Positions 4,979-19,523 of a DNA stretch of 64,000 bases are shown here, piece by piece. The notes beneath the pieces were generated by a model. It worked only from the letters and a program-made list of their open reading frames with translations. It was not told where the DNA came from and did no database searches. How positions within the stretch are numbered: position 1 is the first letter of the stretch; the number at the start of each line of letters is the position of its first letter. The translations under genes were made by a program, and so were the position numbers. Origin of the DNA: Bartonella sp. AU18XJBT (GTDB lineage Bacteria; Pseudomonadota; Alphaproteobacteria; Rhizobiales; Rhizobiaceae); the NCBI RefSeq assembly GCF_028618595.1, contig NZ_JAQITE010000005.1, forward strand, positions 1 to 64,000. Direction: 5' to 3'.

Positions 4979-5497
4979 CTATTTATTATTTTTTTCCAAG
5001 AAAATGCAACAGCCAAGTTTATAAAGTGCTTGGTGCAAGCTTTTATCTTCAATTCCTTCAAGCATTTTTTCCAAGCATTTTTTGTCTTGTTCACTCAAAG
5101 GCGGCTTTAGAGGCAAGTGATTCATAAAAACCGACATACTCCTTTGCTCAATCTTGATGCGATCAATAGCAATATAGCCAAAAAATCCGTTAATTCTATG
5201 AAGTAATTCCTCTGTTTCATGCATCAATTTTAATGCTGCAAATCCTTCACATGCGACAACAAGTGTTGCTGGTTGAAAAACTTCATCCTGATCTGCACGA
5301 CGTTTCCAAATAATTTTAAGCGGCATTGTATATTCACTGATATCATAGCCCGCAATTTGTGGCCAATGTTCTATAAGCGCTACATTAAGCCCTGTCCGTT
5401 TGCGTAAAACTGGATCAAGTATTTTGTATACCGTCTCAGAAAGAGAATAAAAAATATGTTTTTTTAATTGTTTTCTCATTTTTAGATCATTGTTCAA
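4979..5497 (-). CDS. DUF721 / DciA-like protein
   Basis: A 172-residue basic protein of the DUF721 family. DciA, the characterised member, helps load the replicative helicase DnaB in bacteria without DnaC, so a replication role is likely but inferred. Visible family features are the N-terminal DPVLRKRTGLN segment, the WPQIAG motif near residue 46 and the central LVVACEGFAALKLMHE strand-helix near residue 88. The frame begins with TTG; an in-frame ATG lies six codons in (5479), and neither has a strong ribosome site. It is divergent from mutY across 185 bases and precedes the DsbA-like gene. Confidence 0.8.
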   Translation of the reverse strand: MNNDLKMRKQLKKHIFYSLSETVYKILDPVLRKRTGLNVALIEHWPQIAGYDISEYTMPLKIIWKRRADQDEVFQPATLVVACEGFAALKLMHETEELLHRINGFFGYIAIDRIKIEQRSMSVFMNHLPLKPPLSEQDKKCLEKMLEGIEDKSLHQALYKLGCCIFLEKNNK

Positions 5498-5682
5498 CCG
5501 CTTACTAAATTAAAATTATTTGTTTCATCTCAAAATTATTTCCTCCTCAATCTATGAAGTATCAACAAAATAAAAAGCCTTTTCTCACCAGAGCCTTGAC
5601 AATAAAAGAGCAAAAAACATGAATTACAAAATAAACAATTTTTTCTTTTGCATTTTATATCTCCCTATGCTTGAAAGCAATC

Positions 5683-6741
5683 ATGTATGAAATTTCTTCG
5701 CACCTCCTTGCTTGGTACGATCAAAATCACAGACATCTCCCATGGCGGATTACCCCCGAAAAGCAAAAACAAGGTATCCGTCCTGATCCCTATCAAGTTT
5801 GGCTTTCTGAAATCATGCTTCAACAAACAACCGTTGAAACAGTTAAGCCTTATTTTAAAAAGTTTCTGAAACTATGGCCTGATCTTTCCTCTTTAGCAAA
5901 ATCCTCACAAGATGATATCATGAAAGCATGGGCTGGACTTGGCTATTATTCACGCGCACGTAATCTTAAAAAATGTGCGCAACAGCTTGTTGAAAACTAC
6001 GCGGGACAATTTCCACAATCTGTAAAAGAATTGCGAACTCTAGCCGGTATTGGAGATTATACTGCCGCAGCCATTGCTGCGATTGCTTTTAACCACCCTG
6101 TAGCAGTGGTTGATGGTAATGTCGAACGTGTGGTAGCGCGCCTTTTTGCTATCACTTCAATATTACGAAAAGCAAAAGTTGAAATTAAAGAAAAAACACA
6201 AAAAATTACTGCTTTAAATCGTCCTGGAGACTTTGCTCAAGCAATGATGGATTTAGGAGCAACAGTTTGTACTCCACGCAAACCATCTTGTTATACCTGC
6301 CCTCTGCAATGTTTATGCAAAGCAGCAAAAACGCAACAACCGGAATCTTTTCCAGTCAAAGCCCCTAAAAAAGAACGCCCTTCAAAAACAGGTATTGCTT
6401 TTGTGGTCCTTAATAAAAAGAGACAAATTTATTTGGAAAAACGACAGACGCAAAAACTCCTTGGTGGAATGACCCAAATTCCTAACAATATTGGCATAAA
6501 CAACGAAAATGGGCTCCAAAACGCACCCTTTACGGCTAATTGGCAATTCAAAGGACAAATTACGCATGTTTTTACTCACTTTTCTCTAAAGCTCGATGTT
6601 TACTATACCGAGGATGTTCATGAAATGAACTGTGAAAATGGTTGGTGGTGTAACATTCAACATCTTGCCGAAGAAGCATTACCTACTGTTATGAAAAAAG
6701 CTATTTCCGTAGCGCTTCCCAATTCTTTCAGTTTTAAATAA
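5683..6741 (+). CDS. mutY: A/G-specific adenine glycosylase
   Basis: Removes adenine mispaired with guanine or 8-oxoguanine, preventing G:C to T:A transversions. The order of domains is the helix-hairpin-helix LAGIGDYTAAAIAAIAF near residue 120, the catalytic Asp in AVVDGNVERV near 146, the [4Fe-4S] loop with cysteines spaced C-x6-C-x2-C-x5-C near 203-219, and a C-terminal NUDIX-like recognition domain. I prefer ATG 5683 (352 residues); the frame is also open to TTG 5671. In alphaproteobacteria mutY commonly sits with DUF721, dsbA and ccrM, as here. Confidence 0.95.
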   Translation: MYEISSHLLAWYDQNHRHLPWRITPEKQKQGIRPDPYQVWLSEIMLQQTTVETVKPYFKKFLKLWPDLSSLAKSSQDDIMKAWAGLGYYSRARNLKKCAQQLVENYAGQFPQSVKELRTLAGIGDYTAAAIAAIAFNHPVAVVDGNVERVVARLFAITSILRKAKVEIKEKTQKITALNRPGDFAQAMMDLGATVCTPRKPSCYTCPLQCLCKAAKTQQPESFPVKAPKKERPSKTGIAFVVLNKKRQIYLEKRQTQKLLGGMTQIPNNIGINNENGLQNAPFTANWQFKGQITHVFTHFSLKLDVYYTEDVHEMNCENGWWCNIQHLAEEALPTVMKKAISVALPNSFSFK

Positions 6742-8944: not shown

Positions 8945-9640
8945 ATGCCTCAGATAGATCTTATTATTTTTGATTGTGACGGGGTTCTCGTCGACTCTGA
9001 ATATCTTGCAGCAAAAATTGGATCTCAATTGCTCAAACAAACAGGATATGAAATATCACCCGAAGAATTGAGTGAGCGTTTTGCAGGGCTTATCTTTCGC
9101 GATATTCTTAAACACGTTGAACAGGAAACAGAAAAACCAATTTCTGCTCATCTCATAGATCAGATGACTAATATTTTTCGTACACAAATAAAAACTGAAT
9201 TACGGGCTATTGATGATGTAAGAGAAGCTGTAGAAATTATTCAAACACGCTATCCCTACTGTATCTGCTCTAATGCAAAAAGCGTAGATATAAAAGAGAT
9301 GCTCACCACGGTTGATCTCTATGACCTTTTTGAAGGTAAAATATTTTCAGCACCTGAAGTTGGAACAAAAAGAACGAAACCGGCCCCTGATGTTTTCCTT
9401 TTTGCCGCACAACAATTACAAGTAGAGCCCAAAAACACTATCGTTATAGAAGATTCAATTCATGGTGTCCACGCAGCCATAGCAGCAGGCATGCGTGTCA
9501 TCGGCTTTACGGGAGGATCACATAGCTATCTTGGTCACTCTAATGCCCTTGCAGAAGCTGGCGCAGAAACAGTTATCGCAAAACATGCTCATTTAGGAGA
9601 AGTCTTAGAAGCAATGGCAGTATGGCGAGATCTATTATAA
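8945..9640 (+). CDS. HAD-superfamily phosphatase (phosphoglycolate phosphatase-like)
   Basis: A 231-residue haloacid-dehalogenase hydrolase of subfamily IA. Motif I is FDCDGVLVDSE at residues 8-18 with the nucleophilic first Asp. A helical cap follows, then the motif II region CSNAKS near 111, motif III Lys in KRTKPAPDVF near 143, and motif IV VIEDSIHGV near 166. Such enzymes act on small phosphorylated metabolites; phosphoglycolate and beta-phosphoglucose phosphomutase-like roles cannot be separated here. ATG follows an AAGGAAT box. In related genomes a HAD gene neighbours ccrM, which supports the placement. Confidence 0.85.
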   Translation: MPQIDLIIFDCDGVLVDSEYLAAKIGSQLLKQTGYEISPEELSERFAGLIFRDILKHVEQETEKPISAHLIDQMTNIFRTQIKTELRAIDDVREAVEIIQTRYPYCICSNAKSVDIKEMLTTVDLYDLFEGKIFSAPEVGTKRTKPAPDVFLFAAQQLQVEPKNTIVIEDSIHGVHAAIAAGMRVIGFTGGSHSYLGHSNALAEAGAETVIAKHAHLGEVLEAMAVWRDLL

Positions 9641-10098
9641 AAAACCTCTTGAATATATCAGTTTGTAAACTCTTGTAAGAAGCATTTTTATTCAAATGCC
9701 CTTCTCTTTTCGCTGCTCCTTTTATAATAACTTCAATAAATGTGTAATTCACGACACAAGTGAATTGCATCTCAATGTGAAGGAAAAAAATATAGCACCT
9801 CGTTGAACAATTATAAGTCAGCTAACCATTGCATGTGCTTTAAAAAAGCAAAAAACAGGGGTGCAAACTCATAAAAATAAAACTCTGCTTATCTATCTTC
9901 AACTCCGATATCACACTCCCAACCTCAGCAGCCCATCCTGATAAATTATTATATGTGTCAAAAAAGGAATATTACGATACCTTGTTCGATAAGATGTAAA
10001 AATTGCTATGCCAAAACTACGCCCTCTCAGCTTATTAAGTACATTACCCAACATAGTAAAATTGTATACTATGATCGTATTGACCATAGGGGAACACG

Positions 10099-10296
10099 TT
10101 GAAATTCTCAGAATCTATGAAACGCAATGAGCTATTGAAAACAAAAAACGTCCTTGTTGAGTTACAAGAGCTTATATTTACTCTATCCAAATCTTGTAAA
10201 CTTGTTGAAAGCTTATTTTCTTTGCTGACTAAACAGTATTTTAACAGTATCAATTGGTACAACCTCCCTAAGATTACAAAAGATATATTCTTATGA
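10099..10296 (+). CDS. Doubtful small ORF, hypothetical
   Basis: A 65-codon frame starting with TTG a few bases after an AGGGGA run that could serve as a ribosome site. The product would be Lys, Leu and Ser rich with an amphipathic middle (ELQELIFTLSKSCKLVESLF) and no known domain. An overlapping minus-strand frame (10044-10262) is equally open, so coding status is unclear. Confidence 0.2.
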   Translation: MKFSESMKRNELLKTKNVLVELQELIFTLSKSCKLVESLFSLLTKQYFNSINWYNLPKITKDIFL

Positions 10297-10395
10297 CGAT
10301 GTGGACTTTATAAAAAATATTTCATACCAAGTAATTTACAGACAACGTATTTATTTATACTGATAACTTACTGTTATTCAAATTAAATAAATAAA

Positions 10396-10670
10396 GAAAT
10401 AAAACGCCTCTTAATGAATCATCTCAAAATGCAGAAATTATAGCAACATTAGGAGCGAACAAAGTGTATGGCGATGCCATCTTTTTTCTTTATAAACGTC
10501 AAAGATTCTGATGCCCTAAGAATTTTATATTATGGGGATTTACCATTGTATCACTCATGTGCATCATTGCAGAATAGGCTTGAGTACCTTGAGAAGGGTT
10601 TCTTAAAAAAGCACATAAATATGAAACATATAATCATGTAAAACAACGTAAAGAGATACCAGTAGTTGCT
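10396..10670 (+). pseudogene. Relic E of integrase, longest coding remnant
   Basis: The plus strand matches the intact integrase from its start region (cgcctcttaatgaatcatct against ggctcttatgaaccgtctta), through gcaacattaggagcgaac, gcgatgccatcttttt and tttataaacgtcaaagatt, to a later block ggcttgagtaccttgagaag-ggtttcttaaaaaagca (codons for LGALRDVSLKQA) and aaacaacgtaaagaga (KQKRE). So about the first 90-100 codons survive with stops and frameshifts. It lies 620 bases before the exported-protein cassette and may mark the element that brought it. Confidence 0.7.
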
Positions 10671-11289
10671 CAAAATTTTCCGAAAGCACTTAATAGACTT
10701 TTTAAATAAGCAATGAAATCAGATCTTTTCAAAAGTAATCCCACTTTAAGAAAAACACTCTTTCTAAAAATAAAAGTGGCTTTTCAGTTTAAAAAGAAGA
10801 AAATGTTAAAAAATATTATCCAATGCTGATCTTTCGGCACTTATAAATATGTAGGAATTTATATTCTTCTATACACAGCTTTGCATCATAGTAATATGCT
10901 GTTCACATTGGCGAAATAAAGATTATATCATTTATCTTTATCCAATTAGAGCCCTATTTTATACGATGATAGAACTATATATTTTTAGCATCTATAATAA
11001 ATACTATGAATCATGAAATTTTATCGTGTCAATTTATAATAGATACTAAATAATTTTTATATATTTAGTATGTAAAAATTTTGATCAATTTTATTATCTA
11101 TGAATGTATTAAAAAATAATATTAATATCATTTTATAAAAATTATATGATAACCACATGTTATTTATATATAACACATAACGAAATATTTCATAAAATTT
11201 TTAAGAATATTTTTGTAATTATTACTGTTACTTTTTTACAATAATGTTTATTAAAAATTACAGTTATATTTTTATATGTATTTTTATTA

Positions 11290-11318
11290 TTGACTAAAAA
11301 TACATATTGAAATAATAT
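11290..11318 (+). promoter_or_regulatory. Near-consensus sigma70 promoter of the exported-protein cassette
   Basis: TTGACT at 11290-11295, a 17-base spacer, and TAATAT at 11313-11318. This is one base off consensus in the -35 box and close in the -10 box. It stands about 78 bases before the start codon of the first cassette gene and has no other gene to serve. Confidence 0.55.
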
Positions 11319-11395
11319 ATTTTATATAGGGTGAGATATATAAACATTATGTATATTTCTTACATATATAACTTAAGAATATTTGAGGTAAAGTT

Positions 11396-11752
11396 ATGGT
11401 AAAAATATTTAAAAATTATATCTTAAGCATTTTTATAGCGAGCACTTTTTTTATTTCACAAACTGTAAATGTTAATGCAAACTATTTGAAAAACGATACT
11501 CCAAAAGAGGAACTTTCTGTTTCCCCAATGGAACAAGTAAAATATGCGAAATCCAATGTAGTTTCTACGGCTGCTTCCTATGTTCCATCTGTAAATTATA
11601 AAACAGAAAATGGAACAACAAGTGAAGGAAAATTTGAAAAGGTCGTTGAACCTATGACTATAGGAATGGGATTATTGCTTACTGGATATGCAATGAGTTT
11701 TATAGGATCAATAATAAGTTGGATAAAGGACATAGTATTGATGTTCAAATAA
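11396..11752 (+). CDS. Small exported protein, paralog 1 of 3
   Basis: I do not recognise the family. The 118 residues start with a signal peptide (MVKIFKNY, then a hydrophobic stretch to about residue 24, with a likely cleavage after VNANA-like residues 26-29). A polar middle of about 45 residues leads to the motif EGKFEKVVEPMTIG (about 77-90), followed by a Gly-rich hydrophobic tail of about 25 residues ending in a Lys/Phe tip. The mature form would be about 90 residues, either membrane-anchored by its tail or membrane-active. Start ATG has the box TTGAGGTAAAGTT, almost identical in paralog 2. It is first behind the promoter at 11290. Confidence 0.8.
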   Translation: MVKIFKNYILSIFIASTFFISQTVNVNANYLKNDTPKEELSVSPMEQVKYAKSNVVSTAASYVPSVNYKTENGTTSEGKFEKVVEPMTIGMGLLLTGYAMSFIGSIISWIKDIVLMFK

Positions 11753-11929
11753 TTCAACCTCATCTAGAACTCTAGAATAATAGCTTCATTGTGTTTCTAT
11801 AATTCATTGTAAATAATTACATAATGAAGCTCATCTTTCTACAAAAGATAAATGTTGTAGATTATATCCAAATATCCAAAGTATAAATTTACACATATAT
11901 TGAATAGTATAAAATATTTGAGGTAAATT

Positions 11930-12292
11930 ATGATTAAATTGTTTAAAAATCATATGTTAAGTATTTTCATTATGTCTGCCTTTTCTCTTTCTCAGGTTGT
12001 AAATGTGCATGCAAACTCTTTGCAAAATAATACTCATCGTGAGAATATTTCTGTTTCTACAATAGAGCAGAAAAGAAAGGATGCAATCCATACCGTTTCT
12101 CTCTATAGACCCAGTCTAAATCGTGGAATGGATAATGAAACTACTATTGAAGGAAAATTTGAAAAGGTCGTTGAACCTCTTACAATCGGGAATTTTGGTA
12201 TGGGGATGGCACTTGGATATGCATCAAGTACGATAGGCATGTTTTTAGGATGGATCATAAGTAAAATAATATCGTATTTTACATCTCGTTAA
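11930..12292 (+). CDS. Small exported protein, paralog 2 of 3
   Basis: A 120-residue paralog of the proteins on either side. The N-terminus (MIKLFKNHMLSIFI) and signal peptide ending VNVHA-N are clearly shared with paralogs 1 and 3. The motif reads EGKFEKVVEPLTIG near residues 76-89, followed by a Gly/Met/Ile-rich hydrophobic tail with a W-I-I-S-K segment. It lies 177 bases after paralog 1, with its own GAGGTAA ribosome site. Its upstream segment (about 11840-11896) is repeated near 13014. Function unknown. Confidence 0.8.
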   Translation: MIKLFKNHMLSIFIMSAFSLSQVVNVHANSLQNNTHRENISVSTIEQKRKDAIHTVSLYRPSLNRGMDNETTIEGKFEKVVEPLTIGNFGMGMALGYASSTIGMFLGWIISKIISYFTSR

Positions 12293-12506
12293 AATTGAAA
12301 TTTCATCAGAATAAAACCTTCTCATATGAAATGTAAACTATGGATATATTCTGTGTTGACCCATTATTGATGACAAAAAACTAATGAATTATCACACTAA
12401 GAATGAAAAAAGCTTTAAATGCTTCTGTTTCTCTCGATGTGTACTAATTCTGCCGATGCATCTATTCAATTCAGATTAAAATAAAATAAAAGATTGGTGA
12501 TAAATT

Positions 12507-12869
12507 ATGATTAAAGTATTGAAAACTTACGTATTAAATATTTTAATAGCAGTTTCTTTTTTGCTTTCACAAGTTATAAATGTTCATGCCAATCATTTGA
12601 AAAATGATATTCAATGGGAAACTGTCTCTCTAATAGAACAGGGAAAGAAAAAAGCTATCGATATAGCTTCTCTTTATGTCCCAAGTTTCACTCATGGAGC
12701 AAAAAGTGAAACTGCCATTGAAGGAAAATTTGAGAAAGTATTTGAACCAATTACGCTAGGAGTTTTTTCTACAGTAGGAGCTTTGGGTTTTGGATTCTTG
12801 ACTGGATTTTTTATGTCCATATTTAGCGGGACAATCGGATGGGCAATAGGAAAACTTAAAGGCAAATAA
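12507..12869 (+). CDS. Small exported protein, paralog 3 of 3
   Basis: A 120-residue third copy: signal peptide ending INVHA-N, the motif EGKFEKVFEPITLG near residues 78-91, and a tail rich in Gly and Phe ending in the basic GKLKGK. It has drifted furthest from paralog 1. The ribosome site is weaker (TTGGTGATAAATT). It lies 214 bases after paralog 2 and is followed by a clear stem-loop at 12917-12947. The conserved motif in otherwise divergent copies suggests selection on that block, though no function can be assigned. Confidence 0.8.
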   Translation: MIKVLKTYVLNILIAVSFLLSQVINVHANHLKNDIQWETVSLIEQGKKKAIDIASLYVPSFTHGAKSETAIEGKFEKVFEPITLGVFSTVGALGFGFLTGFFMSIFSGTIGWAIGKLKGK

Positions 12870-12916
12870 TTCAAAGATACTTAGTTATTTTTTTCTATTT
12901 AAAATAAGAATACTTT

Positions 12917-12947
12917 ACAGCCTGCTTCAGATCATGTAGCAGGCTGT
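12917..12947 (+). terminator. Stem-loop after the exported-protein cassette
   Basis: A perfect 10-base-pair stem (ACAGCCTGCT with AGCAGGCTGT) around an 11-base loop, followed by a weak T-rich stretch. It lies 48 bases after the last paralog and is far more GC-rich than its surroundings, so it is a likely transcription terminator or RNA 3' end. Confidence 0.6.
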
Positions 12948-13485
12948 CGTATGTTTTCTATGGATAAACTTTCGGTTACCATCCTGTATAGCGCAAATAT
13001 AATATCTATTATTATACAAAATGATAAATTAAGCTAAAAAAGAGTATTCAAAGTATAGATTTGCGCATGAAATGCCATAAATTCACCTTATAAATCTTCT
13101 ATCTTGAAATGTATCGTTTTAATATTCATTTTAGTAGATTTAATTATTACAAAGTATAAGAGTATAAAATAACTATGAATGGTTGAGTTTTACAAAAAAA
13201 TCTTCAATAAATACCATTCTATCTATTTGGTTTTATTATTTAAGTAAGGTGTACAAGTGAAGATACGTTGTAAAATTTAAGTGAATGAATAATAGAGAGA
13301 AAATTTTCGACTGTAACAGATTTTCTGTGGACATTTGACGTTTATATCTCAAAAATAAAAATGCTTAAGACTATTTCCTTTCATTATTGAGTTTAAAAAA
13401 CTATCCATTTAATAATTTAAATATTATGAAAAACGTGAAATAAATAACTTCACCAATTTGCCAGAAATAAAAAAGGATAAGACTT
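12948..13485. other. Spacer before thrC with an orphan cassette-leader repeat
   Basis: No gene is visible. About 13014-13070 resembles the segment upstream of paralog 2 (11840-11896): tacaaaa-gataaat, then ttcaaagtatagatttgcgc against tccaaagtataaatttacac. No fourth paralog follows it. The rest is AT-rich with nothing I can name. Confidence 0.45.
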
Positions 13486-14883
13486 ATGGAATATATCAGC
13501 ACGAGAGGTGAAGCTCCTGCTTTAAGCTTTACGGAAACAATCATGACGGGATTGGCAAGTGATGGGGGACTTTATTTGCCAGATAAATTTCCTCAGCTAT
13601 CATTTGATGCGTTACGAGCACTTCGTGGTCAGTCCTATACAACAATTGCTAAAACTATTCTGTGGCCCTTTGTGAATAACGAAATCGAATATACAGCTTT
13701 TGAAAAGATGATCGCTGAATCTTATGCAACCTTTCACCATCCAGCAATCTGTCCGTTACGACAAACTGGAACAGATGAATTTATCCTTGAACTCTTTCAT
13801 GGTCCTACTTTAGCTTTTAAAGATGTAGCAATGCAGTTTCTTTCTCGACTGATGGATTATGTTTTGACTGAAAAAAATAGATGTGCAACGATTATTGCTG
13901 CAACATCAGGTGATACAGGAGGAGCTGCAATACAAGCTTTTGCTGGAAAAGAACACTCAGATATTTTTATTTTATTTCCTAAAGGACGTGTATCACCTGT
14001 TCAACAACGGCAAATGACAACCAATCAATGTTCAAATGTTCATGCCATTGCCATTGAAGGAAATTTTGATGATTGCCAAGCTCTTGTCAAAGCAATGTTT
14101 AATGACCACAGTTTTCGTAAAAAAAGAGCGCTTTCAGGTGTTAATTCTATAAATTGGGCGCGTATTATGGCGCAAATTGTTTACTATTTTTCATCTGCAC
14201 TTTCCTTAGGAGCTCCTGATAGAGCTGTTTCATTTACTGTTCCTACTGGAAATTTTGGTGATATTTTTGCAGGTTACGTTGCAGCCCGTATGGGATTACC
14301 CATTGCTCAACTGGTCATCGCAACGAATGATAACGACATCCTTGTACGTACATTGATCAGTGGTACTTACGAAACACAACCAATAGTCCACACAACATCA
14401 CCTTCTATGGATATTCAGGTCTCTTCTAATTTTGAACGTTTGCTCTTTGAAAGTGGCAATCGTGATCCAAAGTGGATTCGCAATGCAATGGAAAACTTGA
14501 AACAATCAGGACATTTTACTCTTAATGAAAAGCAACTCAAAAATATTCGTTCCCTATTTTCCGCTGGGAAAAGCACCATGGCTGCAACAGCTCAAACAAT
14601 TGATAGTGTCTATAAAGAAAGTGGTTATCTTGTTGATCCACATACAGCCGTCGCTCTTCAAGTAGCGCGTGAAAACAAAAAACCGCATATTCCAATGATT
14701 GTCCTTGCCACGGCTCATCCAGCTAAATTTCCTGATACTATTAAAAGTGCTTGTGGCCTTCATGCCCCATGTCCTTCTCATCTCAATGATGTAATGAAAC
14801 GCGAAGAACACTTTATAAGTCTTGCTAATGATGAAAAAATAGTAAAAGATTATATCTCTTTAAAATCGCGTGCATCTTATTAA
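13486..14883 (+). CDS. thrC: Threonine synthase
   Basis: A PLP enzyme converting O-phosphohomoserine to threonine, the last step of the pathway whose homoserine kinase (thrB) lies at 21601. The 465 residues fit the long bacterial/fungal-type ThrC. The N-terminus MEYISTRGEAPALSF is typical, the PLP-binding Lys is in LAFKDVAMQF near residue 112, and the cofactor-phosphate loop region reads ATSGDTGGAA near 144. ATG follows AAGGATAAGACTT. The M16 peptidase follows after 82 bases on the same strand, a conserved Rhizobiales pair. Confidence 0.96.
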   Translation: MEYISTRGEAPALSFTETIMTGLASDGGLYLPDKFPQLSFDALRALRGQSYTTIAKTILWPFVNNEIEYTAFEKMIAESYATFHHPAICPLRQTGTDEFILELFHGPTLAFKDVAMQFLSRLMDYVLTEKNRCATIIAATSGDTGGAAIQAFAGKEHSDIFILFPKGRVSPVQQRQMTTNQCSNVHAIAIEGNFDDCQALVKAMFNDHSFRKKRALSGVNSINWARIMAQIVYYFSSALSLGAPDRAVSFTVPTGNFGDIFAGYVAARMGLPIAQLVIATNDNDILVRTLISGTYETQPIVHTTSPSMDIQVSSNFERLLFESGNRDPKWIRNAMENLKQSGHFTLNEKQLKNIRSLFSAGKSTMAATAQTIDSVYKESGYLVDPHTAVALQVARENKKPHIPMIVLATAHPAKFPDTIKSACGLHAPCPSHLNDVMKREEHFISLANDEKIVKDYISLKSRASY

Positions 14884-16637: not shown

Positions 16638-19523
16638 GTGAAGAGTTTGCGTAAAATAATTGACATCATTTTCATTGTAGTCGTTAGTTCTCTTGTCCAT
16701 CTTACATCAGCACAAGCAATTGAACCAGTTAAAATTTCTCCTCAGGATGCTGCGCTTGATCTTTCACAAGCAATTGAAATTCACCATACAAACAACTCTA
16801 TTTTTCAAACAAGTACAGCACCAGGACCAGATGGTATTGTATGGCGTATTGAGGTGCAGGCAAAAAATGAAAATTTTTCCGGAAATTGGGCAGTTTTTTC
16901 TCTTGCAAATCCAACAGATGAACAAGTCGATCGTCTCATCGTTGCTCCCCATTACCGCATGGCGCATTCTGGATTTTTTTGGCCAGACCTTGGATCAGCA
17001 AGGATTCAATCCATAACGCCAAGCGAAGGTTTTTCCCTCGATCGTCAACTTAGTGCAAACTCTGATATCTTTCGTATTACCCTTAACCCCGGTGCGGTTG
17101 TTACATTTGTGGCCGAACTCAACTCTGCAAATCTACCGCAAATCTATTTATGGCAACCTGAAGCTTATAAAGATGCAATTAATTCTTATACGCTTTATCA
17201 TGGTATTCTTCTTGGGATATCAGGTCTCTTAGCGCTTTTGTTAACTGTTCTCTTCGTCGTCCGTGGAACGGGGCTGTTTCCTGCAACAGCTGCTGTTGCT
17301 TGGTCCGTGCTTTTTTATATTGGTATTGACTTCAACTTTTTAAATAAATTCTTTGCAGTTACACTCACAACACAACCAATCTGGCGTGCTGGTACAGAAG
17401 TAGCACTTACTGCTACACTCTTCATTTTTCTTTTTACCTATCTCAGCCTTAACCGCTGGCATTATCATTTTAGTTACGGTGCTATCGCTTGGACCATTGC
17501 CTTTTGCAGTCTGGGAGCCTTTGCTATTTATGATCCAATCAGAGCAGCTGGAATTGCGCGTTTGTCTTTTGGCCTTACCGCTGTACTTGGTATACTATTA
17601 ATCATCTATTTCTCAATCAGAAGCTATGACCGCGCTATTATGCTTATTCCAACATGGTTGCTTATTAGCTTTTGGTGTGTTGGAGCCTATGCCTGTATAG
17701 CTGGATATTTAAACAATGATATTATCCAGCCAGCATTAGCGGGGGGATTAGTGCTCATTGTTCTTCTCATCAGCTTTACTGTCCTGCAACAAACTTTTTC
17801 TAATGACGCTTTCCATGAAGGAATATTTTCCGACCTTGAACAACAAGTACTCGCAGCAAAGGGAGCTGGAAATATTATTTGGGATTGGAACATTGAGCGT
17901 GACCGTATTGTTGTGCATCCAAACATGGCAACCCTTTTTGGTACTGAAATTCATAACCTCAATGGACCTATGCGCAACTGGATTTCAGCCTTGCACCATG
18001 ATGATCGTGAACGCTTTCAAGCTGTATTAGATATCATTCTTAAAAATAAAAAAGGGCGCATTGATCAAATTTTTCGGCTTTCTTCCGGTGGTGGTTATTA
18101 TCATTGGTTTTCTCTTCGTGCACGTCCGGCTATGCAAAAAGATGGGAAAATCACACGTATCATTGGAACCATTGTCAATATTACTAACCATAAAAAATCC
18201 GAAGAACGCTTATTGCATGATGCAATCCACGACAGCTTAACCGGCCTTCCTAACCAACAAGTTTTCTTTGATAGACTACAAAATTATACCTCTTTGGCGA
18301 AAGCAAATATCAAAATTAGACCGACTGTCTTTATGATTGATTTTGACAATTTTCGCCAAATTAATCGCAAATTAGGCATAGCAGTTGGGGATACTGTATT
18401 GCTTATAATCGCACGTCGTTTAAACCGTCTTATTAACTTTCAAGACACCTTATCGCGACTTTCAGCAGACCGCTTTGCAATTATTTTACTCAGTGAAACT
18501 GAACCACAAAAAATTGCAGCATTTGCAGATCATTTGCACAAAACAATTTCAGCACCTATTTCACTTTCAGAAAACAAAATAATCCTTTCAACGTCTATCG
18601 GATTGGTTACATGGAGTGAAAGCCGATCGACGGCTAAAGATATTTTTAATGATAGTGAATTAGCGATGATTCGTGCAAAACAAATGGGCGGAAACCATAT
18701 AGAACCTTTTCGTCCTAATTTTCGCACTTTGGGTCTCGAACATAATACTCTGGAGAAAGATGTTCATTATGCCATAAAACGTAATGAGATAAAAATCCTC
18801 TACCATCCTATTCTTAATTTATCAGATGGACATATTATTGGTTTTGAAACAATTGTAGAATGGCATCATCCCACTTATGGAAATTTAAATGTCTCTGATT
18901 TCATAAAAATCGTAGAAAACGAACAAATTGTTATGGATTTGTCACAATTTATCATCGATAATGCTATTATTGATCTTATAAATGTACAAGAAAAGTTTTC
19001 CCAACAATCTTTCTTTATTTCAATTAATTTACCAAGCGCAGAAATGATTCATCCTCGTTTTATCAGTCAATTGCGCGCCGCTTTGCTTCGCCATCCGCTC
19101 CACAAAGGGCGTTTGATGATTGAAATATCTGAATTTGTCTTAAGAAATAATCCTGAACAATCAGCGCACTTTCTCGAACAAATTAAGACACTTGGAATGA
19201 ATCTCGCACTCGATAATTTTGGAACAGGTTATTCGTCTCTGACCTATCTCGTACGTTATCCATTTGATATGGTTAAACTTGATCGTTCACTTATCTCAAT
19301 CGACTCTCTTAAGAAGAAAATTGTTCTAAAGTCTATCATTAATATGGCAACAGATCTTAATTTGCAAATTATCGCAGAAGGTGTTGAAAATGAAAAAGAA
19401 GCAATCTTCCTCCGTCAAGAAGGCTGTAAATATGTTCAAAGTACACTTGTGACGAAACCGATTGCCATAGAAGAATTAATTACGCTCGTTCAGAGCCATT
19501 TCCCTTATAAAATAAAAACATAA
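16638..19523 (+). CDS. Membrane PAS-GGDEF-EAL protein with degenerate cyclase site
   Basis: A 961-residue cyclic-di-GMP family protein. A signal peptide ends at SAQA (about 25), then comes a periplasmic sensor domain to about 180, about seven membrane helices (about 190-385) like 7TMR-DISM receptors, and a PAS domain (about 400-525). The GGDEF domain follows, with SADRF replacing GGDEF near residue 611, and no RxxD I-site. The EAL domain begins with FETIVEW near 736 and retains Asn, Glu, Lys and Gln positions (SINLPS, EISEF, VKLDRS, VQSTL), but DDFG reads DNFG near 858. It is therefore unlikely to be a cyclase; phosphodiesterase activity is uncertain. Start is GTG after GAGAGTGGG. Confidence 0.88.
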   Translation: MKSLRKIIDIIFIVVVSSLVHLTSAQAIEPVKISPQDAALDLSQAIEIHHTNNSIFQTSTAPGPDGIVWRIEVQAKNENFSGNWAVFSLANPTDEQVDRLIVAPHYRMAHSGFFWPDLGSARIQSITPSEGFSLDRQLSANSDIFRITLNPGAVVTFVAELNSANLPQIYLWQPEAYKDAINSYTLYHGILLGISGLLALLLTVLFVVRGTGLFPATAAVAWSVLFYIGIDFNFLNKFFAVTLTTQPIWRAGTEVALTATLFIFLFTYLSLNRWHYHFSYGAIAWTIAFCSLGAFAIYDPIRAAGIARLSFGLTAVLGILLIIYFSIRSYDRAIMLIPTWLLISFWCVGAYACIAGYLNNDIIQPALAGGLVLIVLLISFTVLQQTFSNDAFHEGIFSDLEQQVLAAKGAGNIIWDWNIERDRIVVHPNMATLFGTEIHNLNGPMRNWISALHHDDRERFQAVLDIILKNKKGRIDQIFRLSSGGGYYHWFSLRARPAMQKDGKITRIIGTIVNITNHKKSEERLLHDAIHDSLTGLPNQQVFFDRLQNYTSLAKANIKIRPTVFMIDFDNFRQINRKLGIAVGDTVLLIIARRLNRLINFQDTLSRLSADRFAIILLSETEPQKIAAFADHLHKTISAPISLSENKIILSTSIGLVTWSESRSTAKDIFNDSELAMIRAKQMGGNHIEPFRPNFRTLGLEHNTLEKDVHYAIKRNEIKILYHPILNLSDGHIIGFETIVEWHHPTYGNLNVSDFIKIVENEQIVMDLSQFIIDNAIIDLINVQEKFSQQSFFISINLPSAEMIHPRFISQLRAALLRHPLHKGRLMIEISEFVLRNNPEQSAHFLEQIKTLGMNLALDNFGTGYSSLTYLVRYPFDMVKLDRSLISIDSLKKKIVLKSIINMATDLNLQIIAEGVENEKEAIFLRQEGCKYVQSTLVTKPIAIEELITLVQSHFPYKIKT

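Follow-up and report, generated by a model that had tools for sequence, protein, structure and literature searches.

The three tandem genes at 11396-12869 of the window (the whole 64,000-nucleotide stretch of DNA that was analysed) are a set of three kept tail types with heads overwritten between neighbours, a relationship that is new here. They belong to a family that is real, restricted to Bartonella and without a name; its head-tail concerted evolution is unusual, and its function can be inferred only in outline. The reading that we prefer, with a probability somewhat short of even, is that the products are Sec-exported single-pass inner-membrane proteins, a genus-restricted set in which the periplasmic face is common and the three membrane helices are not interchangeable.

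Organization of the locus

The three genes lie in a row on the plus strand and encode proteins of 118, 120 and 120 amino acids. They share one layout, in the order signal peptide, polar middle, a block of the form EGK[FVI]EKV.EP.T.G, hydrophobic tail and basic tip. Gene 1 (11396-11752, tail type 1) starts with a signal peptide at 11396-11479 (residues 1-28, putatively cleaved after NVNA), carries the block EGKFEKVVEPMTIG at 11624-11665 and ends in a type 1 hydrophobic tail at 11666-11749 with the tip FK. Gene 2 (11930-12292, tail type 2) has its signal peptide at 11930-12013 (residues 1-28), the block EGKFEKVVEPLTIG at 12149-12190 and a glycine-rich, basic-tipped type 2 tail at 12191-12289. 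In gene 3 (12507-12869, tail type 3), the signal peptide at 12507-12590 (residues 1-28) and the block EGKFEKVFEPITLG at 12720-12761 are followed by a glycine-rich type 3 tail at 12762-12866, which has the basic tip GKLKGK and falls inside a helix predicted for the mature chain (45-92). The putative cleavage sites were placed by the AxA rule in all three proteins.

The open reading frames bear out the three tandem paralogs of 118-120 residues described in the initial annotation. A search of its own genome (2,391,500 bases in 161 contigs) with copy 3 recovers copy 2 (51% identity, E 1.0e-25) and copy 1 (48% identity, E 2.4e-20) and, with E values allowed up to 10, nothing further. A profile built from all three copies picks up three additional, distant places in that genome, at E 0.0017, 0.066 and 0.17. 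The flanking genes of the trio encode a HAD-type hydrolase (8945-9640) and ThrC (thrC, 13486-14883), both named from sequence reading, and a peptidase gene was seen by eye as a further neighbour. Each of the three genes has its own ribosome site, beyond which little upstream similarity among them is visible by eye. About 1.75 kb upstream of gene 1 (9641-11395) is without a convincing gene, and the window contains no tRNA.

Evolution of tails and heads

The head is defined here as the ribosome site, signal peptide, polar middle and EGKxEKV, and the tail as EPxTxG, the hydrophobic segment and a mostly basic tip. Copies from 18 named loci and the window fall into three orthologous groups with a fixed order. 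Tail types were scored with tail-only profiles, which were built from the named triads, so that for those triads the scoring is not independent. By this measure 37 of the 41 genomes examined have every tail type intact, defined as an open frame of 105 codons or more, and the order 1-2-3 holds in 36 of 41 when duplicated neighbours are allowed; G001 has an extra type 1 copy in between. Four loci have decayed (G011, G017, G019 and G070). Each retains gene 1 intact, with genes 2 and 3 broken or missing, so gene 1 seems to be independent of the other two. The B. florencae locus (L010, 5445-7975) carries five copies, not three, and one of its type 2 copies has a longer, polar, non-basic C-terminus.

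Protein trees of 78 copies, from the 26 genomes with exactly three copies, differ between the two parts. The tail tree contains 2 changes of gene position, which is the minimum, and the head tree contains 13; shuffled means are 37.2 and 37.6, so the heads retain part of the position signal. An earlier version with all 99 copies and profile labels gave 3 changes for tails and 17 for heads. The heads do not sort by gene position because they are overwritten between neighbours. Paralogous heads and tails were compared in 32 genomes with 99 full-length copies, and heads were called homogenised at an identity of at least 0.88. Five of the 32 genomes have homogenised heads, and 27 have no head pair at 0.88. 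The strongest case is G033, with a DNA identity of 0.97-1.00 for heads versus 0.52-0.54 for tails, where the common tract extends from the ribosome site to the EKV codons and is sharp at both ends. Heads and tails are at 0.97 versus 0.61 in genes 1 and 2 of G016, at 0.92 versus 0.53 in genes 2 and 3 of G023, and at 0.89 versus 0.52 in genes 2 and 3 of the B. koehlerae locus L021; the last two may represent a single common event. The three heads of G068 are at 0.88-0.94 and its tails at 0.59-0.86, two of them being alike (0.86), and a type 2 tail sits on a type 1 head. Genes 2 and 3 of L013-L015 (heads 0.79-0.82, tails 0.46-0.49) possibly hold older traces of homogenisation.

As far as sequence comparison goes, the tails are three old types in a fixed order, and the heads have been repeatedly overwritten by neighbouring copies. 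Distinct tails together with homogenised heads suggest three different membrane jobs with one common front part. The locus is a natural experiment in which evolution swapped heads, not tails, and it points to where specificity lies. Conversion may spare the tails merely because their homology is too low, without selection for difference; tails 1 and 3 at least seem to matter, given their low omega values (below). In G023, two distant relatives that stand in tandem at an unlinked place (L066, 3963-4361 and 4458-4871) also have near-identical heads and differing tails. Their near-identity starts farther upstream and ends at a GK.E[KN]V motif, as in G033.

Selection on the block and the middle

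EGKFEKV is identical in the three window copies and is followed by [VF]EP[MLI]T[IL]G. The initial annotation called this block fixed, which is correct within the window but too strict for the family, since in a set of 59 copies (19 loci) the residue at the F position is V in 26 copies, F in 18, I in 14 and L in 1. In the same copies, each of the three residues of EKV is conserved in 58 of 59, and the P, T and final G of the block in 55 of 59. Window copies 1 and 2 share 31 identical nucleotides that exactly span the block, versus a longest identical run of 10-19 nucleotides between copies 1 and 2 at nine other loci examined. The sameness within the window therefore looks in part like a recent conversion patch, a small one of the same kind as the head homogenisation, and conversion adds to the likeness of the block there.

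Omega was estimated by the pooled Nei-Gojobori method for the signal, middle, block and tail segments, over all pairs of 18, 19 and 19 rows in groups 1, 2 and 3 (one truncated copy and two L010 copies omitted). Read only as a ranking, because pairs are non-independent and synonymous sites are partly saturated, the values for signal, middle, block and tail are 0.47, 0.78, 0.26 and 0.27 in group 1, 0.43, 0.76, 0.21 and 0.63 in group 2, and 0.55, 0.50, 0.05 and 0.40 in group 3. The block has the lowest omega in each group, hardly below the tail in group 1. Within a close rodent clade (8, 9 and 9 rows), the corresponding values are 0.28, 0.65, 0.34 and 0.20 in group 1, 0.70, 0.60, 0.38 and 0.92 in group 2, where substitutions are few, and 0.42, 0.50, 0.07 and 0.27 in group 3. 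There the block is lowest in groups 2 and 3, and the tail and signal of group 1 are lower than its block. Retention of the block had been taken to imply function, and the purifying selection seen over all pairs, at 0.26, 0.21 and 0.05 for the block versus 0.78, 0.76 and 0.50 for the middle, supports that view. The low omega across species also led us to reject the idea that the block is kept solely by conversion.

Over all pairs the middle (omega 0.50-0.78) ranks first or second in rate among the segments, and the family occurs only in Bartonella among the genomes searched. Both observations would suit surface antigens that were diversified by duplication and vary what the host sees. Such antigens are nevertheless quite unlikely, as no segment has an omega above 1 and exchange homogenises the exposed heads, which is the opposite of diversification. 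The earlier proposal of surface peptides diversified by duplication likewise finds no support: exchange makes the heads more alike, and the hydrophobic tail is what differs.

Distribution of the family

The trio profile matches 18 named records, all of them Bartonella, the closest being B. sp. CM31XJBT and B. grahamii (91% identity to copy 1). Same-order orthologs in these records led us to reject chance or artefact as the origin of the trio. The three-copy profile finds members in 42 of 71 Bartonella genomes. One of these, G035, has a distant relative alone (E 1.5e-4), so that the trio locus is occupied in 41. G035 has the HAD and thrC genes with a longer gap between them and no detectable copy; in G047 the two genes lie only about 250 bases apart, without a copy. 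A wider profile that includes dispersed relatives reaches 48 of 71 genomes. The six extras (G010, G015, G037, G041, G043 and G048; E 6.5e-4 to 4.8e-6) are weak and were read as chance; the places were inspected in G015, where one lies in a 950-residue open frame (no trio-type ORF listed at the first) and the other crosses six stops. Two genomes match in an order-wide sample of 297 genomes from 122 genera. Both are Bartonella, namely the window's own genome and a weak match read as chance, and the other genera in this sample contain no relatives.

None of the 42 family-bearing genomes has a match to the flagellin N-domain. Flagellin is found in 25 of the 71 genomes, five of which have weak wider-profile matches that were read as chance, and four genomes (G006, G047, G048 and G063) have neither flagellin nor a family member. 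We take the flagellin-less, family-bearing genomes to be those of the species in which Trw takes the place of flagella during infection of red cells. As a conserved, uncharacterised set of envelope genes found only in Bartonella genomes that lack flagellin, the trio provides named, testable genes for the adaptation of these presumably Trw-using species.

Contig C83 of the window's own genome (L057) holds distant relatives at 5340-5708 and 18833-19144. They are single, lie in gaps between genes and have a signal peptide in the style of the trio's. The relative at 18833-19144 follows a hutH-like gene, as does a relative in G023 (L067). The dispersed relatives lack EPxTxG.

The initial annotation treated the family as unrecognised, and searches of Pfam, NCBIfam, PHROGs, PADLOC and PDB sequences agree in matching no well-characterised family. 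None of the three proteins reaches a cut-off in Pfam or NCBIfam. Larger sets of members gave scattered matches in PHROGs (36 members, best E 0.0098), Pfam (36 members, best E 0.0026) and NCBIfam (28 members, best E 0.0058). This scatter, with at most five members per family among the matches listed, is read as chance; in PHROGs, 1 of 36 members matches 'immunity to superinfection' (E 0.0098) and one matches a holin family (E 0.31). PADLOC has no match for the three proteins, and a profile of 57 mature sequences, searched against PDB sequences with E values of up to 10, has three matches, of which the lowest E is 1.1. A mobile origin of the trio was considered and rejected: plasmid and phage records contain no match to gene 3, and viral contigs none to the trio profile.

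Membrane topology and possible function

In three-copy loci the mean best Kyte-Doolittle 19-residue window is 1.89, 1.54 and 1.85 for tail types 1, 2 and 3. Net charge over the last ten residues is positive in 17 of 17, 18 of 18 and 18 of 18 copies of the three types (53 of 53, leaving out one truncated copy), and over the first nine residues it is positive in all rows listed. Two of the five L010 copies lack a basic tip (net 0 and -1). The glycine-rich tail with a basic tip, as originally described, fits tails 2 and 3; tail 1 has fewer glycines and a tip of only +1. AlphaFold2 predicts one helix in the mature chain (45-92) that starts at the block and continues to the end. Mean pLDDT is 75 for residues 61-70, 88 for 71-80 and 85 for 81-90, and confidence is low elsewhere. 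The precursor model likewise has a long C-terminal helix, at 71-119. Overall the models of the mature chain and precursor are weak (mean pLDDT 61.7 and 61.8, pTM 0.31 and 0.24), and with a mean pLDDT of about 62 they were used for the C-terminal helix alone. The hydrophobic tail noted at the outset is thus predicted to be one long helix, hydrophobic enough for a membrane.

Charge and hydropathy, as read from the sequences, fit a type I, Sec-exported, single-pass inner-membrane protein. The charge pattern fits an inner-membrane protein at least as well as a membrane-active or pore-forming one. Secreted membrane-active peptides (pore-formers, bacteriocin-like or host-directed), whose glycine-rich tail would enter a foreign membrane, would share the signal peptide, small size, glycine-rich hydrophobic tail and basic tip of the trio. 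We regard them as unlikely, since the tail hydropathy (1.54-1.89) and the basic tip are in keeping with a stop-transfer anchor, inspection of the neighbours by eye showed no gene for immunity or export, and neither a PADLOC match nor a convincing PHROG match was found.

For the inner-membrane proteins that we prefer, the following course can be proposed. Sec would export the head, and signal peptidase would cut at [NH]A/N. The tail would then stop transfer and stay anchored in the inner membrane, with the basic tip on the cytoplasmic side and hence the head in the periplasm. The block would form the juxtamembrane start of one continuous helix through the membrane. One partner or surface may be common to the three heads and the block, and with such a common partner the heads may be, and are, homogenised. 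Each membrane helix would have a packing partner of its own, be it the other two tails, assembled into a small hetero-oligomer, or one of three different membrane proteins. The middle, which is fast-changing yet often alike within a genome, would fit co-evolution with a species-specific partner. Exchangeable heads, a strongly kept joint and three separate tails would together place specificity in the membrane part, and the survival of gene 1 alone would imply some independence of the genes.

The three proteins could instead be independent small membrane regulators, each tail acting on its own membrane protein and the head being a freely homogenised export or anchoring module. This is a genuine but minority possibility. 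It would account for gene 1 persisting by itself in all four decayed loci, for the weak constraint on the middle and for the unlinked single copies of distant relatives. It sits less well with the retention of set and order in 36 of 41 genomes, a constancy not required of independent genes, and with the conservation of the block in all three types. A tighter version of the common-face proposal, which we consider rather doubtful, is a three-part membrane machine of some Bartonella only, in which conversion keeps the periplasmic heads alike as one face for a fast-evolving partner, the three helices are non-interchangeable, and EGKxEKV is the joint.

Comparison with known systems

The pilins TrwL and VirB2 (PF04956) resemble the trio in being small and hydrophobic, in having a signal peptide and in occurring as tandem copies in the same genomes. 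These proteins have two membrane helices after the signal peptide, whereas in the trio the polar middle is followed by a single predicted tail helix (in models of low overall confidence). On a pilin reading the trio would be exported, tandem accessory pilin-like subunits of Trw or VirB type IV secretion, and PF07996 (VirB5/TrwJ) does have a match in 42 of 42 family-bearing genomes. Such a role is nonetheless very improbable. A profile-profile comparison with TrwL/VirB2 (hhalign, a database of one built from 12 Bartonella proteins) gives a probability of 3.3% over 13 columns at E 0.013, and PF04956 has no Pfam match for the three proteins, nor is it among the 25 of 29 families listed for the 36 members. 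Ten genomes have PF07996 without a convincing family member (G006, G010, G014, G029, G038, G041, G043, G046, G047 and G048), and G006 and G047 each have three PF07996 matches and zero family matches. The HAD-thrC locus also differs from the secretion locus: the trio's contig is without TrwL-type genes, and it is on other contigs that the genome has its PF04956 matches.

The major coat protein of filamentous phages, pVIII, has a signal peptide, a polar or amphipathic part, one membrane helix and a basic C-terminal tip. The architecture of the trio resembles it, a likeness by description only, and the mature chain of the trio, at about 90 residues, is much longer. No convincing PHROG match links the trio to phages, nor does any match in phage records (gene 3) or viral contigs.

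In LPXTG and PEP-CTERM sorting signals, a proline motif, a membrane helix and a basic tip follow one another in that order. The trio has the same order, and EPxTxG, helix and tip could on this basis be a C-terminal sorting signal cut by a transpeptidase. This is extremely improbable. The window's own genome, the one tested, contains neither a sortase (PF04203) nor an exosortase (PF09721), with 3 of 14 and 1 of 14 control genomes giving matches. The dispersed relatives lack the motif, and the tail types are individually conserved, as a generic signal need not be. The translations of the three window proteins contain no cysteine and hence no lipobox, so they are not lipoproteins.

Like the trio, the multi-copy Bartonella families in the published excerpts are genus-restricted or expanded, and tandem or dispersed. 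They include the Brt RNAs with Trp regulators, which are DNA-binding proteins (PMC5387305), the large iba autotransporters (PMC3610622), and a family of B. australis and B. bacilliformis for which Leptospira homologs are claimed (PMC3610622). The excerpts of PMC2697382, PMC3610622 and PMC5387305 describe these other multi-copy families and no small exported head-tail proteins. More widely, the literature searched yielded no description of the family, which is weak evidence of novelty, and no expression or localisation data.

RNA elements around the genes

A promoter scan of the window found 23 candidates versus 21.8 expected, which is chance level. A strong hairpin lies 3' of gene 3 on the plus strand, at 12917-12947, with an outer stem of ten pairs (MFE -19.2 kcal/mol for 12912-12962, z -4.5). 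It is a possible terminator and is absent from the output of the terminator scan. Rfam has no family at cut-off in 10500-13600, and an RNA feature beneath genes 1-3 was rejected on this ground. Two sub-threshold Rfam matches occur, one of them (E 0.42) on a stem-loop between genes 1 and 2.

This stem-loop, at 11782-11831 on the plus strand, is conserved (12 pairs counted, MFE -15.2 kcal/mol, z -4.8) and lacks a U-run after it. It is kept in an alignment of 16 of 19 loci, with 94.3% of cells paired versus 92.6% in shuffles. Slid versions give 27-57% pairing, yet a slide of +3 scores 0.129 for covariation. The stem-loop itself scores 0.147, which was reached in 0 of 500 shuffles, and four of its 12 pairs have changed on both sides, which was reached in 3 of 500.
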